Below are positions 47,817-55,616 of a DNA stretch of 64,000 nt, in pieces. A program made the translations under genes and the position numbers. This DNA comes from Rossellomorea sp. AcN35-11 (GTDB lineage: Bacteria; Bacillota; Bacilli; Bacillales; Bacillaceae_B): positions 4,094,001 to 4,158,000 of the forward strand of contig CP128835.1 in the NCBI GenBank assembly GCA_030388825.1, in the 5' to 3' direction. Every line of letters begins with the position of its first letter. Position 1 is the first letter of the stretch. A model generated the notes under the pieces. It worked only from the letters and a program-made list of their open reading frames with translations, was not told the origin of the DNA and searched no databases.

Positions 47817-48803
47817 TCACTCTAATAAATACTTATATTCACCTCCTTGAACTACTTCATTTGCCTCCATCTCCGTCCATTCTCCAATTGAAACACCTGG
47901 ATTCGCATCCAAGTAACTTTGAGTGATTTGAAAACCTATTTTGTAGTTTGACCACAAAGGAATATCTTTGGCTGAGTTGCCCGTGAAAAACTCATTGTAA
48001 ACACTTGAGTCGTAGGAATTTGCATTTTTTCTTAATTCCTCTAAAACGATGTGCTGACTCTTATTTGCCAAAGATTCCGCCCATGGGGCCTGATAATCGG
48101 GGTACACTAATCCCGCAAAAGAATCCGCTTTCCCTTCGAAAATAACAGCCTCCATCAATGAGTAAAGTTCTTTACCGCTCCTTTCCATGTTCACTGCATG
48201 GTGATATTCGTGTGCCACTATATAATTTAACGTTTCCTCTTTAAACGAAGGGTCTATCTGGAGTAAAATGGCACCTTCACTCATGGTCAATCCCCAAACT
48301 CCATCCATTTTTTGTATAGTAAATGTATTTTCAGGGTTAAGAGGCATGACAAAAACCGTCTTGGTGCCCCCGGATAAGTAATTGGCAGATTTTATAAGGG
48401 ATTCTTTTATCAATGTATTGATTCTATCTTGCTGCTCAAGCAGTTGGACTGTATTTTCTTCTAATGTTTGCGGGTTCTCCGTAGGTTGAAAGAATGGAAA
48501 GTACATATTCCCTATATCTATATTCTTCTCAGCAGCGTACTGCTGAAAGGGAACAACCACTTTTCCCCCATATTCAACTTTTGTATGTTGAGATGGATCG
48601 TCCTGTACAAGACCTGTGTATTCAAGAATTTCCTCATAGAGAGGGATGATCTGAAAGGTCTGTTCATCATGGGTAAATTCCAATGAAGCTTGAGAAGGGA
48701 TCGAAGGAGCTTTATCACTCTTGGCACTGCTCTCGTCTTTGGAACATCCGATTACCATTGACATGATTAGAACAAGGATGGCTGGGTACGTAAGTTGTCT
48801 CAT
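47817..48803 (-). CDS. Putative zinc-metalloprotease lipoprotein (DUF2268-like)
   Basis: 328 residues from the ATG after AAAGGAGAAG. Lipobox MVIGC at the N-terminus marks a membrane-anchored extracellular protein. The C-terminal half has LNYIVAHEYHHAVNMER, a HExxH zinc site, followed about 25 residues later by EGKADSFAGL, which can supply the third ligand. This matches the DUF2268 group of predicted Zn-dependent proteases. Substrate unknown. Confidence 0.78.
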   Translation of the reverse strand: MRQLTYPAILVLIMSMVIGCSKDESSAKSDKAPSIPSQASLEFTHDEQTFQIIPLYEEILEYTGLVQDDPSQHTKVEYGGKVVVPFQQYAAEKNIDIGNMYFPFFQPTENPQTLEENTVQLLEQQDRINTLIKESLIKSANYLSGGTKTVFVMPLNPENTFTIQKMDGVWGLTMSEGAILLQIDPSFKEETLNYIVAHEYHHAVNMERSGKELYSLMEAVIFEGKADSFAGLVYPDYQAPWAESLANKSQHIVLEELRKNANSYDSSVYNEFFTGNSAKDIPLWSNYKIGFQITQSYLDANPGVSIGEWTEMEANEVVQGGEYKYLLE

Positions 48804-49014
48804 ATTCACACTTCTCCTTTCATAATGGGATAAACTCTGTTCGACACGATTTTCTGTCAGGCATAGAATCACCGGCTGGTGTTTTAGTACTAAAAAGATT
48901 CATTGAAACATATACGATTGAATTTCCAAATAGTTTCAATTCCTCCGGATACTTGTTTAATAGTCTCCTATCCCTCTTCCGTTTGACCAACAAAAATTTG
49001 TGTGAGTATACATA

Positions 49015-49077: not shown

Positions 49078-49737
49078 TTACTTAAATACCTTCCTTCTCA
49101 TCCACTGCGTAGCAGCCCATTTATCCCCGATGACGACCGGTGCCCCGCCGTGGAGTGTCAGATCGTTCAGCTCCTGGCTGTCATAGAAATATTCGAAGTA
49201 AACCGCCATCCCTTTTTGTGGGGAGACGGAGAGATTCAGTTTCGGGAAGTAGGTTTCCCCGCCTTCTTCTACGTCGTTCAGATACATGACGAGGGTACTG
49301 ATTCTCGGGTTCTTGACAGGCCTTGCCGATGCCGAGAAGAAATCAAAGTGGGCCTTATATTCCTGACCCGGTTTATAATTAAGGATTTGCAGACCTTCCC
49401 CATGCTCGACGGGTATATTCATAATCTGCGAGACCCGCTTTTCAATACGAGTCACGACGTCATGCTCATTCTCTTCAAGGAAGACAGAACTGCTCGTCCG
49501 GAGCTCGTCGACTGTCCGGGTATTCCCAATTTTTGACCGTTCGACACGGTCCTTGGATAACTGGATGAGTTGATCGCATTCTTCGTGGCTCAGCACATTT
49601 CCGAGAACGACGATCAGCGGCTCTTCCATCTTCACGATGATCTGAATATCCCGGTCGTCCGTCTTGATTTTATTCCCTGTATGGTGAAAAATCGTTTGTT
49701 CCTTTACAACTGTTTCAGTAGTTTCCATTGCCAACAT
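49078..49737 (-). CDS. 2-oxoglutarate/Fe(II) prolyl 4-hydroxylase-like protein
   Basis: 219 residues. The double-stranded beta-helix carries His130 and Asp132 (KAHFDFF), the distal His196 (TLHGGAP) and Lys206 (GDKWAATQW) for the 2-oxoglutarate carboxylate. Overall it resembles the B. anthracis prolyl 4-hydroxylase, which acts on proline-rich and collagen-like peptides. The window also encodes a collagen-like protein with more than 200 prolines, an obvious but unproven substrate. The ATG follows AAGAGG. Confidence 0.88.
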   Translation of the reverse strand: MLAMETTETVVKEQTIFHHTGNKIKTDDRDIQIIVKMEEPLIVVLGNVLSHEECDQLIQLSKDRVERSKIGNTRTVDELRTSSSVFLEENEHDVVTRIEKRVSQIMNIPVEHGEGLQILNYKPGQEYKAHFDFFSASARPVKNPRISTLVMYLNDVEEGGETYFPKLNLSVSPQKGMAVYFEYFYDSQELNDLTLHGGAPVVIGDKWAATQWMRRKVFK

Positions 49738-50040: not shown

Positions 50041-50144
50041 GGGCTCAGAAATGGAACAAGACCTTGAATACTTGTTACGAGTTTCGGAAGGGGGCTAGAG
50101 AATTTTTGGGTGGTTTTTCAATATATTGATCAAAATACAATAAA

Positions 50145-50167
50145 GAGAACAGCAACTTGCTGTTCTC
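50145..50167 (-). terminator. Palindromic terminator after the sigma/anti-sigma gene
   Basis: GAGAACAGCAA / TTGCTGTTCTC followed by TTTATTGTATTTTG on the minus strand. Confidence 0.6.
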
Positions 50168-50285
50168 CCATCTTAAAACCCTTTTCATTTATATCCTATT
50201 TGAGTGTGATAATTGTGCCTGATATTTTGGTTATATCAGTGATCCTACCTTAATGATATCGGCTAGTCACCTAATCTAGTCATCT

Positions 50286-52346
50286 TCACTGTCCATCCAA
50301 TGAAACTCTTATCACATCATCGACATAAGTTGTAGTGCTGTAACCTAGAATGTCAAGTTGGGTAGGAATGTAATCTTCCGTGGAACCATCACGATAAAAG
50401 TCTATCGTCTGGACCGTTTCAAAGTAACGGGGAAGGTCCATTTCACCGTGTACATATTCATTCACGTCATACACTTTCCCATCCTCATCCATCAACACAC
50501 CTTCCCCGCTGTTTACCCCGATTGAAATCATATCATCGTCTTCTGACATGCCTTTGAAATGATAATTTACACTCTCATAGGCCCTGTCCTTTGACATACC
50601 ATGGGTCAGAACCACCTTTGCCGGGTTCCCGACACTGATCTTATCAATCGTAATCGGATTGCCAAGGTATTCAGTCGTTTGGGGCAGATCCTTGCCGGCA
50701 TCGAGGATGATGGTTTTTGGTTCATCCACGGATAATCGAAGCGAGGCGAATCGGATGTCCACTTCCTTTGGATCTTGGAAATAAAGAGTGTCGAAGGCTG
50801 CGGTAAAGGCAGTCCACCCTTCTTGATCCCAGGCCTCCACATACATATGGCCCCCGAACGGGTTTGAATCTGACTTCTTTTCACCTGCTTTAATAGAATC
50901 AAAGTTGATCATTTCAATCCTTTGTTTATCTGATTCACTCTGAAAGCTGTACTGGAGGATTGTCGCAGTCGGGGCGATGGTCAGCTTATCCAATCTCACC
51001 GGGATCCCGGCGACTTTGACTTCCCGATTCATTTCATGAAGATGGGAAGATTGCTTTTCGAATGGGATCTTAAAGCTCCAGTCTCCCTCGGCAAACTTCA
51101 TTTCCCCTTCTGTCACCCATTTACCCTGGGAGTCTAGGGATAATTGCATGACCCTGGCAATATTCAGGTGAATCTCCCCCTTATCCTCCACTACGGGTGA
51201 CAGGCTGATGGTACCCACATACACATTGGCCTGATCATTTCCGTAGTCACTTTGATCGACGGGTGGAGAATAATACCTGTAACCATCTCCCATACTCATA
51301 ACGTCACGTTCATTTTCGATAAAGATGCCTTCGTACGGATTAATCATATATTGATAATCATGGTTCATATCCTCGATTTCATAAAACACCAGGGTCTGTA
51401 CGTCATCGGCCACGACACTTTTGATCGTGATCTTGACTCCGTCACTTTCGGCCTCAAGGTTCAACCGCTCTCCCAGGTTATGCTGGAGCAGGGTACGAAG
51501 CCGTTCATCCTCCTCTGTATAAGAATAATAGAGACTTGCGAATCCCCCCGTGACAAATCCCGTGCTTATGAGGAGGGCGAATACACCTGCGATAGACATC
51601 AGGATTGAATTCCGCTTCTTTCTCCGTTTCTTCCTGCTCGCTTCTCTTTCATCCACCCTGCTCCTGAGCTTTTCCATAAATCGGTCAGGAGGGGAAATCT
51701 CCCTGCGCAACCGGTCAAGGGTCAGGGTCACTTCCTGGAAGGAGGCCAGGTCTTCCTGGCAGTACTGGCAATGATAAATATGTATTTCAAATTCGACTTT
51801 CTCTGGTCGCTCCATGGTTCTTCCTAAGTAATCCAAATAGGAGGGCTGATAGTCGGTACACCCCTGGAATCGTCTTCCTTGATTCATCTTTTCACGAATG
51901 ACCCTGATCCCTGCAAACACCCTTGAAGTAACCGTTTCGACGGGAATGCGGAGAATTGTGGCAGCCTCTTCCCGGGAATACCCCTTCACATACGTTAACG
52001 CGACTGCGTCTCTCTCTGGACTTTCCAGTTGACGGATAGTCCCGAATTGATCATCCCCACCTGAAGACGGTGAACTCTTTTCATCGACCAGCTCCTGACA
52101 CTGATGTAAAAAAACAGCAGCGGCTTTCCGTTCAAACGAAAGTTCTTTTTTCCTTCTGTGCATCTCTTCCTCTAATCGGATGATGGAACGGTAAAATGCC
52201 TCCTCCAGCTCCTCCTCACTGTCCAGGAAAACACGGCCGAGTGCGTACAGTGAGCGTGCCTCCTTTTCAAACCAGGCGATGATCGAATCCAGTTCCCGTC
52301 TCCCGTACTTACTGACCAGCACGGGACCGGTTTCCAATTTCGCCAT
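50286..52346 (-). CDS. ECF-like sigma factor fused to zinc-binding anti-sigma and membrane sensor (DUF4179/DUF5643-like)
   Basis: 686 residues from the ATG six bases after AAGGGGGG. Residues 15-90 resemble sigma region 2 (SLYALGRVFLDSEEELEEAFYRSI). Residues 105-155 are sigma region 4 (ERDAVALTYVKGYSREEAATILRIPVETVTSRVFAGI). A zinc anti-sigma motif follows: C163, then H189-x3-C193-x2-C196. One membrane helix (about 247-270) leads to an extracytoplasmic domain of about 400 residues built of beta-rich DUF4179/DUF5643-like units. Normally sigma and anti-sigma are separate proteins. Here release of the sigma part would need proteolysis, or the protein acts from the membrane. Confidence 0.85.
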   Translation of the reverse strand: MAKLETGPVLVSKYGRRELDSIIAWFEKEARSLYALGRVFLDSEEELEEAFYRSIIRLEEEMHRRKKELSFERKAAAVFLHQCQELVDEKSSPSSGGDDQFGTIRQLESPERDAVALTYVKGYSREEAATILRIPVETVTSRVFAGIRVIREKMNQGRRFQGCTDYQPSYLDYLGRTMERPEKVEFEIHIYHCQYCQEDLASFQEVTLTLDRLRREISPPDRFMEKLRSRVDEREASRKKRRKKRNSILMSIAGVFALLISTGFVTGGFASLYYSYTEEDERLRTLLQHNLGERLNLEAESDGVKITIKSVVADDVQTLVFYEIEDMNHDYQYMINPYEGIFIENERDVMSMGDGYRYYSPPVDQSDYGNDQANVYVGTISLSPVVEDKGEIHLNIARVMQLSLDSQGKWVTEGEMKFAEGDWSFKIPFEKQSSHLHEMNREVKVAGIPVRLDKLTIAPTATILQYSFQSESDKQRIEMINFDSIKAGEKKSDSNPFGGHMYVEAWDQEGWTAFTAAFDTLYFQDPKEVDIRFASLRLSVDEPKTIILDAGKDLPQTTEYLGNPITIDKISVGNPAKVVLTHGMSKDRAYESVNYHFKGMSEDDDMISIGVNSGEGVLMDEDGKVYDVNEYVHGEMDLPRYFETVQTIDFYRDGSTEDYIPTQLDILGYSTTTYVDDVIRVSLDGQ

Positions 52347-52489
52347 AGTCATCCCCCCTTTTTCCAAATCTCTCAATCTCATCCTATTAATTATTTCAAA
52401 ATTCCCAATCATTCACAATGATTTTATGCAGCTTACCTCCGTTAACCTCCTATTCCTCTCTTGAAAATCTAAACTTACCAATTGGGGAA

Positions 52490-52518
52490 TTGACGAATTT
52501 CACTTCTCTATCTATAAT
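52490..52518 (+). promoter_or_regulatory. Sigma-A promoter of the first RsbR paralogue
   Basis: TTGACG, 17 bp, TATAAT, 46 bp upstream of the start. Confidence 0.8.
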
Positions 52519-52564
52519 TTCATTACCGAAGTGTCAATCATTAGGATATGAAAGAGGCGTGGAA

Positions 52565-53413
52565 ATGAAAACAAAAGACAAGCTGATGGATTACTTTCGT
52601 ATACAGTCAGAGCAAGTGGTCAATGAATGGCTGGAGATGCGGGTGGACGATCAATTTTCCATTTTTCATGCACATGCGTCAAAGGAGATAGAAGATAAAC
52701 TGAGGCGGGAATGCAGAAGTTTTATTCAGTTTATAACAGAAGCATTAGTGAACAAAGATTTCAAGCTTTCCGAGGAACTTATGAATTGGTCGAACACCAT
52801 CGCCAGAGAGCGTGTCAATGACGGGACAAGCATTGATAAGGTGCTGGATCAGTTTCAGAGATTCAGAGCCCTTTATTTTCGTTTTATGAAAAAATGGTTC
52901 CTGGAGAATACAGACATGCTAGAGGAAGAGCGGTATGACCTGATTGAAAACTATCAGTTGATCTTCGATGAAGTCATCAAAACCTTTGTCCTTTCATACA
53001 AAAAGCACTATGAAAATAGGTTGAAAGATCAGATGGGTCTCATCAATGAATTAAGCTCCCCTGTTATCCCTCTTTCCGAAACGATCGCCATCCTCCCCCT
53101 GGTCGGGGATATCGATACATCCAGGGCGAAATATATCATGGAGTCTACGCTGCAGAAGTGTTTGGAAAAAGAAATTCAGCATCTGGTTGTGGATCTCTCA
53201 GCCGTTCCGGTCATAGACACCATGGTGGCACAGAAAATCTTTGAACTGATGAATACGTTGACATTGGTGGGGGTCCAGCCTATGATTACAGGAATCCGTC
53301 CTTCCATTGCACAGACCGCCGTTCAATTGGGTATCCCACTCGGTTCATTGACTATTCATTCTTCCCTGGTCTCTGCCCTGGATCATCTGGGGTACAGCCT
53401 CAATCCCTGCTGA
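52565..53413 (+). CDS. RsbR-family stressosome co-antagonist (paralogue 1)
   Basis: 282 residues from the ATG after GAGGCGTGGA. The N-terminal 150 residues form a non-haem-globin-like helical sensor. The C-terminal STAS domain runs from ELSSPVIPLSETIAILPLVGDIDTSRA, with LVVDLSAVPVIDTMVAQ and ITGIRPSIAQTAVQLG, the two RsbT-phosphorylated regions of the family. RsbR proteins build the stressosome that gates sigma-B. The rsbS/rsbT genes are not here, so this is a dispersed paralogue (RsbRB/RC/RD type). Confidence 0.9.
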   Translation: MKTKDKLMDYFRIQSEQVVNEWLEMRVDDQFSIFHAHASKEIEDKLRRECRSFIQFITEALVNKDFKLSEELMNWSNTIARERVNDGTSIDKVLDQFQRFRALYFRFMKKWFLENTDMLEEERYDLIENYQLIFDEVIKTFVLSYKKHYENRLKDQMGLINELSSPVIPLSETIAILPLVGDIDTSRAKYIMESTLQKCLEKEIQHLVVDLSAVPVIDTMVAQKIFELMNTLTLVGVQPMITGIRPSIAQTAVQLGIPLGSLTIHSSLVSALDHLGYSLNPC

Positions 53414-54613: not shown

Positions 54614-55447
54614 CTAACGCACTTCGCTTAATGCTTTTTCAAGAGTGGACGTGACAGAAATGTTGTCAAATGAGATCCCCAATTGAACCGCGGTTTGGGC
54701 TATTTCCGGCCGTATCCCTGAAACGGTGCTCTTCACACCGATCAGACTCAGGCTGTGGATGATCTGGAATAACTGGTGGGCCACCATGGTATCCACCATG
54801 ATAACACCTGACAGATCAATGAAAAGATGTCCCACATTTTTATCCACACATTCAGCCAGGGTATTTTCAAGGATATACTTTGCCCTTCCCGTATCGATAT
54901 CCCCGATCAGGGGCAGGACACCTGTTCTCTTATCGATCAGGATGACCGGGGAACTCAACTCCCTGATCATTTCCTGCTGGGCACTCAGGCGCCTTTGGGC
55001 ATACTCATAATTTCCTTCGGCGAATTTTGAAATGACAAGACTGAACGTCTGGATCATCAACTCTCGTATAGAATCAATTTCTTCCGGTGAAAACATGTTT
55101 TTATGCTCACGCCTAAATTCCTTCAACACCCCCAGGTATTGATCCTGGGTTCTGAAGAACTCTCTCAGAATAAAATGGGTAGGGGTTTGCAAATGCTCTT
55201 CATCCTTGGCGATTTCCTCGATCCATTGCTCGAAATTCAATAGCGCATCCTGACCCACTTCCTTAAAGAGGACACAAAAGCGTTCGTGGAATTCATGATT
55301 TTGGCGTTTCAACGTTTGGATCACTTTCTGGTCCCTGGAGGCATAAACCCCGGTTGGATCGTTCTTGTCCAGTGACGCATACCAGTCTTCCGTCAGCTGC
55401 CATGTACGTTCGGTCATATATTCGTAAAATTGTTCAAAAACCTGCAT
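54614..55447 (-). CDS. RsbR-family stressosome co-antagonist (paralogue 2)
   Basis: 277 residues from the ATG preceded by AGTAGG. Helical N-terminal sensor (about 1-145), then a STAS domain with ELSSPVILIDKRTGVLPLIGDIDTGRA, LFIDLSGVIMVDTMVAHQ and VSGIRPEIAQTAVQLG. It is clearly related to the paralogue 1.2 kb away; the residue before GIRP is Ser instead of Thr. It probably joins the same stressosome with a different input. Confidence 0.9.
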   Translation of the reverse strand: MQVFEQFYEYMTERTWQLTEDWYASLDKNDPTGVYASRDQKVIQTLKRQNHEFHERFCVLFKEVGQDALLNFEQWIEEIAKDEEHLQTPTHFILREFFRTQDQYLGVLKEFRREHKNMFSPEEIDSIRELMIQTFSLVISKFAEGNYEYAQRRLSAQQEMIRELSSPVILIDKRTGVLPLIGDIDTGRAKYILENTLAECVDKNVGHLFIDLSGVIMVDTMVAHQLFQIIHSLSLIGVKSTVSGIRPEIAQTAVQLGISFDNISVTSTLEKALSEVR

Positions 55448-55616
55448 GTTCAACCTACTTTCTTTTAAGCAAGATAATATGATGAATTTACACTTTTTCA
55501 TTGATATTCATTCAGCCTGTAACCGCACTCTTAAAATAATTGTTCATAAGCTTAATGTACTATTACCTTGGATAAAAGTAAAAGAAAAAGATGAACGAAA
55601 GATTTAGAAGAAAAAA

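Follow-up and report, generated by a model that had tools for sequence, protein, structure and literature searches.

A gene of Rossellomorea sp. AcN35-11 was found to encode, within one polypeptide, a part derived from a sigma factor, a zinc anti-sigma domain, and a sensor that sits in the membrane, and this fusion, which an earlier note on the same DNA had proposed, occurs naturally in the Bacillaceae and is conserved across genomes. The gene lies in the 64,000-nucleotide stretch that was analyzed, which we call the window. The explanation that we favor, to which we give about an even chance of being correct, is that the sigma part has turned into a sigma mimic, conserved in the family, which docks on the zinc anti-sigma domain of its own chain; we infer both the docking and the function. 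The sigma part is probably a built-in decoy or clamp rather than a switch.

The fused gene and its distribution

The coordinates of the fused gene, its domains, and its neighbors are given in Table 1. The earlier note had described an uninterrupted frame with one membrane helix and a DUF4179/DUF5643-like outer part, and each of these features was recovered. The frame is continuous over its 686 codons, the long model helix (residues 223 to 266) includes the membrane stretch, and the Pfam profiles of DUF4179 (E of 1.1e-13) and DUF5643 (E of 7.1e-9) matched the outer part. The longest open reading frame started at 52412. We preferred the alternative start at 52346 because the upstream starts were inside a conserved promoter-like stretch and because a ribosome-site-like run (GGGGGG) preceded 52346.

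Table 1. Features of the fused gene and its surroundings, in window positions
Feature	Positions	Strand	Basis or remark
Fused protein coding sequence, 686 aa	50289..52346	-	Single frame in 33/35 genus genomes; stop codon 50286-50288
Diverged sigma region 2, residues 19-86	52089..52292	-	Model helices; r2 match in 33/43 fused relatives; no Pfam match in window protein
Sigma region 4, residues 101-156	51879..52046	-	Sigma70_r4_2, E 1e-6, residues 104-146
Zinc anti-sigma domain, residues 160-235 (C163, H189, C193, C196)	51642..51869	-	Invariant motif; NF052375; RsrA/RsiW matches
Membrane helix, about residues 246-270	51537..51611	-	Sequence; model helix 223-266
DUF4179, residues 240-325; membrane helix followed by short helices 268-277 and 281-288	51372..51629	-	Pfam, model
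DUF5643, residues 437-549	50700..51038	-	Pfam
Extracytoplasmic part, residues 271-686, 3FBQ fold	50289..51536	-	Foldseek E 1.3e-8; Z 14.3, rmsd 6.2, 259 aligned
Promoter-like site TTGTGA-17-AATAAT, TG before second hexamer	52390..52418	-	Consensus match only
Terminator-like hairpin, 3' of fused gene	50143..50169	-	3 in region vs 2.0 +/- 1.5 in shuffles
STAS-domain protein, RsbR-like, weak RsbRD_N match	52418-53410	+	Divergent from fused gene, upstream region shared
STAS-domain protein, RsbR-like	54617-55501	-	Flanks fused-gene locus
2OG-Fe(II) oxygenase, prolyl-hydroxylase-like (own reading)	49081-49737	-	
DUF2268 predicted Zn-dependent protease gene	47820-48872	-	Downstream of fused gene and oxygenase gene

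Seven promoter-like sites were counted in the region, compared to 4.5 +/- 2.1 in shuffles. The second half of the site upstream of the fused gene was within a block retained by all 9 upstream regions that were aligned for the window's clade, and its first hexamer varied in two of the 9. Among the columns listed for the aligned upstream regions of 29 fused genes from other genera, the ribosome site was the sole common element. The terminator-like hairpin on the 3' side makes the fused gene look like a single-gene unit.

A full-length match to the fused gene was present in 33 of the 35 genus genomes (G002 and G018 were the two without one). The set of proteins that holds the window protein contained 35 distinct fused proteins, 33 of the genus and two of other genera, and all were single frames of 676 to 692 amino acids. 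Some genus matches were tallied with one internal stop; on translation the same genes, 35 distinct ones in 40 rows, each gave a single frame, so the apparent internal stop fits the terminal stop having been tallied. A 97% identical copy was present in Bacillus sp. RO3, and among the best 80 of 164 relatives the fused gene was also found in Rossellomorea, Neobacillus, Cytobacillus, Lederbergia, Mesobacillus, Virgibacillus, Psychrobacillus, and others. Across the order, 91 of 397 sampled genomes had a match at E<=1e-20, and 63 full-length one-frame places (a count of rows) were located in 54 of the 397. The remaining matches were partial, two-gene, or distant (e.g., sigW-rsiW-like). No plasmid copies were found at E<=1e-5. 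The one-frame homologues in the genus and the order ruled out an artefactual joined frame, and the fusion is not a sequencing error.

Domains of the fused protein and its predicted structure

The two sigma regions named in the earlier note fared differently. Region 4 was confirmed, as Sigma70_r4_2 scored 28.7 bits in the window protein (Pfam cut-off, 25.7), and the same profile was present in all 35 proteins of the set holding it and in 41 of 43 fused proteins from other genera. For region 2, the window protein had no Sigma70_r2 match in Pfam even at E<=10, a result that the earlier note had itself named as one that would refute its reading. Genome-wide, there were 31 Sigma70_r2 matches at E<=0.001, and none was at the fused-gene locus. 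At E<=0.1, the profile was reached by 4 of the 35 proteins in the set holding the window protein and by 33 of the 43 from other genera, and 15 of 15 controls matched it. The profile comparison also brought region 2 of SigW into register, with a nonsignificant 4.8 bits for this piece alone, and the model placed four helices in region 2 of the window protein. What stands of the assignment is a diverged homologue: region 2 is diverged rather than absent, most strongly in the window's own clade, several members of which have it partly deleted.

The zinc anti-sigma motif that the earlier note had read as C-x25-H-x3-C-x2-C was invariant in 35 of 35 proteins and was retained in 104 of the 107 fused proteins that we aligned. 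Together with the predicted helical zinc domain beside the membrane helix, it has the characteristics of a class I zinc anti-sigma domain. NF052375 (antisigma) matched all 35 proteins at E<=0.001, with a score of 34.4 bits for the window protein against a cut-off of 100. Profile matches to RsrA (5frf, E of 1.3e-4) and RsiW (5wuq_C, E of 0.013) were also obtained. The zf-HC2 profile, which the earlier note had suggested as a check, gave weak matches in 12 of the 35 proteins and 16 of the 43 from other genera at E<=0.1, and it was unlisted for the window protein. NCBIfam returned partial ECF sigma and generic anti-sigma matches for the window protein, and all 25 listed of the 47 were far under cut-off. 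DUF4179 scored 51.8 bits (Pfam cut-off, 30.1), which places the protein in the DUF4179 anti-sigma family. A single frame holds the sigma and zinc anti-sigma domains, the membrane helix, and the outer part, and this layout is of the ECF52/53 type as PMC8999054 defines it.

An AlphaFold2 model of the window protein (mean pLDDT, 80.7; pTM, 0.54) contained sigma2 and sigma4 helices, the zinc domain, the long helix, two short helices, and outer beta domains. The sigma part aligned as a single body, over 141 to 143 residues, with CnrH/CnrY (Z 12.7, rmsd 3.3), SigW/RsiW (Z 12.1, rmsd 3.2), and RpoE/NepR (Z 11.8, rmsd 3.1). All sigma matches had a Z of 12.7 or less, and a Z under about 13 may reflect no more than a common helical arrangement; the argument for a closed state rests on rmsd over both domains. 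The rmsd was 4.7 with free SigG1 (Z 11.1) and 26.8 to 27.7 A with eight polymerase-bound ECF chains. With AlgU/MucA and SigE/RseA, a single domain aligned (74 to 81 residues). The match to PhyR (9cb6) was middling, with a Z of 8.9 and an rmsd of 2.8 over 122 aligned residues.

A control model of a two-gene sigma alone was open, at 22.6 A from SigW/RsiW, 22.9 A from CnrH/CnrY, and 11.6 A from polymerase-bound SigE (6jbq). This control had no anti-sigma chain, was built from 15 sequences, lacked RpoE/NepR in its match list, and brought the models to two in total; it shows only that a closed state is not the program's default for any such sigma. The model thus predicts that sigma2 and sigma4 are closed, as in some sigma/anti-sigma complexes. 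According to PMC7406223, anti-sigma factors of the RseA kind insert between the sigma domains and those of the RsiW kind wrap around them; the predicted arrangement resembles the wrap-around kind.

Sigma signatures, selection, and two-gene relatives

The sigma parts of 107 fused proteins were aligned with five two-gene sigma factors and nine unfused ECF sigma factors, and six positions were scored. We take these positions to be contacts with the polymerase or the promoter (polymerase, -10 element, or -35 element) in known sigma factors, and either Q or H at the region 2.2 position was scored as kept. Among the fused proteins, 57 scored 0, 34 scored 1, 13 scored 2, two scored 3, and one scored 4. 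Four of the two-gene sigma factors scored 6 and one scored 5; for the unfused ECFs, seven scored 6, one scored 5, and one scored 3. A score of 0 to 2 was thus seen in 104 of 107 fused proteins and a score of 5 to 6 in 13 of 14 controls lacking the fusion, which may look too uniform because their number is small and a single search with a two-gene sigma supplied 11 of the 14. When the fused rows were thinned at 60% identity, the 25 that remained gave six scores of 0, ten of 1, eight of 2, and one of 4. The earlier note had proposed a membrane-tethered, working sigma factor. This proposal was unsupported as written, since the contact positions were mostly replaced across the fused family and the window protein kept one of the six.

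The individual positions showed the same pattern. The region 2.2 Gln position was Q in 9 of 9 ECFs, H in four and Q in one of the two-gene forms, and Y in 95 of the 107 fused proteins. The region 2 Asn was retained in 7/9 ECFs, 5/5 two-gene forms, and 6/107 fused proteins; the Thr of GTVK in 9/9, 5/5, and 10/107; and the Arg of YRG in 8/9, 5/5, and 14/107, respectively. The basic tail of region 2 was swapped for neutral or acidic residues in the fused proteins, and the mean net charge of the 12 residues that end the region was -1.6, compared to +2.6 in two-gene and +3.2 in unfused sigma factors. For the whole sigma part, the corresponding means were -3.2, +1.8, and +5.7. The linker between the sigma domains was 10 to 35 residues long in fused proteins (median, 33; window protein, 29), 42 to 45 in two-gene forms, and 45 to 47 in unfused ECFs. 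The Trp of FxTW was retained in 14 of the 35 proteins in the set holding the window protein. A strict A-x-A beside the membrane was present in 6 of 107 fused proteins versus 2 of 3 two-gene forms, a tiny control in which the segments compared differ.

Among 33 close pairs, dN/dS was below 1 in both sigma domains wherever it was defined, ranging from 0.06 to 0.61 for sigma2 (32 pairs) and from 0.07 to 0.89 for sigma4 (31 pairs). Judged by these ratios, the sigma part is under purifying selection, and a pseudogene reading of it is disfavored. In 69 fused proteins of other genera, the mean pairwise identity of region 2 was 0.65, compared to 0.50 to 0.72 for the other folded parts. In the 35-protein set holding the window protein, region 2 was the least conserved folded part (identity of 0.37 versus 0.43 to 0.63 for the outer parts).

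Two-gene forms, in which a sigma gene is followed by an anti-sigma gene, were identified at G255:C12, G157:C30, G275:C104, and G176:C43. In G255 and G157, the anti-sigma gene starts before the sigma gene has ended, and in G275 and G176 it begins within a few bases after the sigma gene. A more distant two-gene form, G415, has one TAG separating the parts. DUF4179/DUF5643 operons such as those of G255 and G157 have the same order of parts as the fused protein, spread over two genes, and differ from it in that the genes are separate and the sigma signatures are retained. The genome that the window comes from also has two two-gene DUF4179/DUF5643 systems (G000:C1, about 291784-293279 and 1992038-1993499), and both of their sigma genes match Sigma70_r2.

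A sigma tree was made by a quick method with 40 of the 107 fused rows and was rooted on seven unfused ECFs. All 40 fused rows formed one clade (SH-aLRT, 99) nested in the two-gene forms, and this placement indicates that the two-gene form is the older state. The earlier note had held that separate genes in related genomes would mark the fusion as a sequence error; a few two-gene homologues were indeed found, but the sigma tree places them as the older state, and fused homologues are widespread. In an anti-sigma tree, 22 of 24 fused rows were on one side of a branch with a support of 100. The other two, L132 and L133, grouped with two-gene forms on a long branch, which may reflect either long-branch attraction or a fusion that occurred a second time. 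Both L132 (G162) and L133 (G103) have a badly degraded sigma part and a badly degraded zinc motif.

These sequence comparisons support a history in which an ancestral operon had an ECF sigma gene closely preceding or overlapping a zinc anti-sigma/DUF4179/DUF5643 gene, and the two genes became one in a single ancestor of most or all family members. Thereafter, the sigma part lost most of its polymerase- and promoter-contact signatures and its linker shortened, while purifying selection persisted.

Possible roles and genomic setting

The two sigma domains are predicted to sit closed, like those of some sigma/anti-sigma complexes, and a sigma mimic in this state would fill the zinc anti-sigma domain of its own chain in cis. 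A signal sensed by the outer domain might loosen this contact and free one of the two parts: either the anti-sigma domain, which could then capture a genuine ECF sigma factor, or the mimic, which could act on another partner. In class I complexes, according to PMC7406223, the face of sigma2 that binds polymerase and the -35 face of sigma4 both lie under the anti-sigma domain; thus, after fusion, these faces could have been remodeled for permanent binding. Among the points against a mimic, region 2 has not been erased, since 33 of the 43 proteins from other genera reach Sigma70_r2 at E<=0.1, and region 4 persists in nearly all fused proteins. The usual region 2.2 Gln is already an H in four of the five two-gene sigma factors, and the model departs from some sigma factors bound by anti-sigma factors (AlgU/MucA and SigE/RseA).

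We also advance, tentatively and as a minority possibility, a fuller account in which the protein would be an anti-sigma factor with its own sigma decoy. It would carry out partner switching within one membrane chain: the decoy would occupy the zinc anti-sigma domain at rest, and the outer signal would free the anti-sigma domain (or the decoy), whose target in trans would be a genuine pair of ECF sigma and anti-sigma factors. If so, the protein would do in a single membrane-bound chain what PhyR and NepR do as separate proteins, and it would derive from a sigma/anti-sigma operon. G157 and G255 have a two-gene system and fused paralogues within the same genome (L164, L127, L128, and L126), a natural setting in which a fused protein could act on a two-gene sigma factor.

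The next explanation after a mimic is a one-component sigma factor that stays tethered and silent until site-1 and intramembrane cleavage, both putative, release it, as happens with IutY and has been proposed for ECF52/ECF53. The domain order is that of ECF52/53 and IutY in the account given in PMC8999054, DUF4179 carries the signal-peptidase switch in RsiV according to PMC6066255, and region 4 and a diverged region 2 persist under purifying selection. However, most of the contact positions are lost, the tail of region 2 is acidic and not basic, the linker is shortened, the window's clade has extra region 2 deletions, and the FxTW Trp is kept in fewer than half of the set holding the window protein. 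The scarcity of a strict A-x-A (a weak point, with its tiny control and unequal segments) and the resemblance of the upstream promoter-like site to the housekeeping type (also weak) point the same way. A tethered sigma factor is therefore possible but disfavored, and we regard it as doubtful.

An unlikely reading makes the sigma part a structural remnant, kept only to stabilize the cytoplasmic end of a sensor with its output elsewhere. The low conservation of region 2 in the 35-protein set and the degradation of both the sigma part and the zinc motif in L132 and L133 are consistent with a remnant, but in the 69 proteins of other genera region 2 matches the other folded parts in conservation, and dN/dS is below 1. 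Quite improbable is a membrane-tethered transcription factor whose region 4 helix-turn-helix would bind DNA without polymerase: region 4 is the sigma piece that Pfam detects best, but the recognition helix rarely keeps the Thr of GTVK or the Arg of YRG, and the sigma part is net negative where those of two-gene and unfused sigma factors are net positive. A frameshift or assembly error that merged two genes has next to no probability, for although two-gene homologues do exist, the single frames recur in 33 of 35 genus genomes and in 54 genomes of the order.

Several known systems resemble the fused protein in part. In the account of PMC8999054, ECF52, ECF53, ECF48 (SCO4117 type), and IutY (ECF243) have sigma, anti-sigma, and membrane parts in one polypeptide, with a zinc anti-sigma domain in ECF48/52/53, and they are described as proteolysis-released sigma factors of Actinobacteria or Pseudomonas putida. 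Compared by description alone, the Bacillaceae protein differs from these in having mostly lost the contact positions and in having a DUF4179/DUF5643 outer part. Fused ECF sigma factors have been described as one-component switches, and this family suggests another outcome, in which the sigma part is retained, selected, and seemingly disarmed. ECF201, ECF257, and ECF265 are Firmicutes groups with extensions of unknown mechanism in the same source. They could include fused proteins, and we do not claim that the family is unlisted. Among the literature matches listed (titles and abstract openings), there was no description of such a fusion in Bacillaceae, and no paper was found under DUF5643.

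PhyR of alphaproteobacteria, as portrayed in PMC4598750, has an ECF-like sigma2-sigma4 fold, is a mimic and not a sigma factor, and binds an anti-sigma factor. The fused protein is like PhyR in its predicted sigma-like fold without sigma signatures, and PF22233, a further PhyR likeness, was matched by 22 of 43 fused proteins of other genera at E<=0.1. PhyR has a receiver domain, of which the window protein had no Pfam match at E<=10, and acts on a separate NepR, whereas the mimic proposed here shares its chain with a zinc anti-sigma domain and a membrane sensor. It would be an ECF-derived sigma mimic outside the PhyR line. The two-gene relatives make the step from sigma factor to mimic directly testable, and the family is a warning that region 4 by itself may not suffice to call a protein a sigma factor. 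B. subtilis RsiV shares DUF4179 around the membrane helix; by the description in PMC6066255, it differs in that its sigma factor (SigV) is separate, its outer part beyond DUF4179 has no relation to 3FBQ, and it binds lysozyme. The outer domain of BAS1627 (3FBQ) has the same fold as that of the fused protein (Table 1).

No target sigma factor was identified for the fused protein, and no gene neighbor was widely shared across genera in the 79 loci obtained from the best 80 of 164 relatives. In the same loci, RsbR-like, prolyl-hydroxylase-like, and other genes were considered as a conserved operon partner and rejected, as they recurred in only 10 to 14 of the 79, of the Rossellomorea type. The widest neighbor cluster outside the Rossellomorea-type records was transporter-ATPase-like (our own reading), in 24 of the 79 loci and at mixed positions. 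STAS/RsbR-like relatives were near the fused gene in 12 of the 79 loci, in Rossellomorea-type records, and a relative of the 2OG-Fe(II) oxygenase was near it in 14 of the 79 and downstream in 13. Adjoining copies of the fused gene were present at loci L069, L108, L109, L128, and L131; at L069 there were three, and the third runs past the end of the locus.
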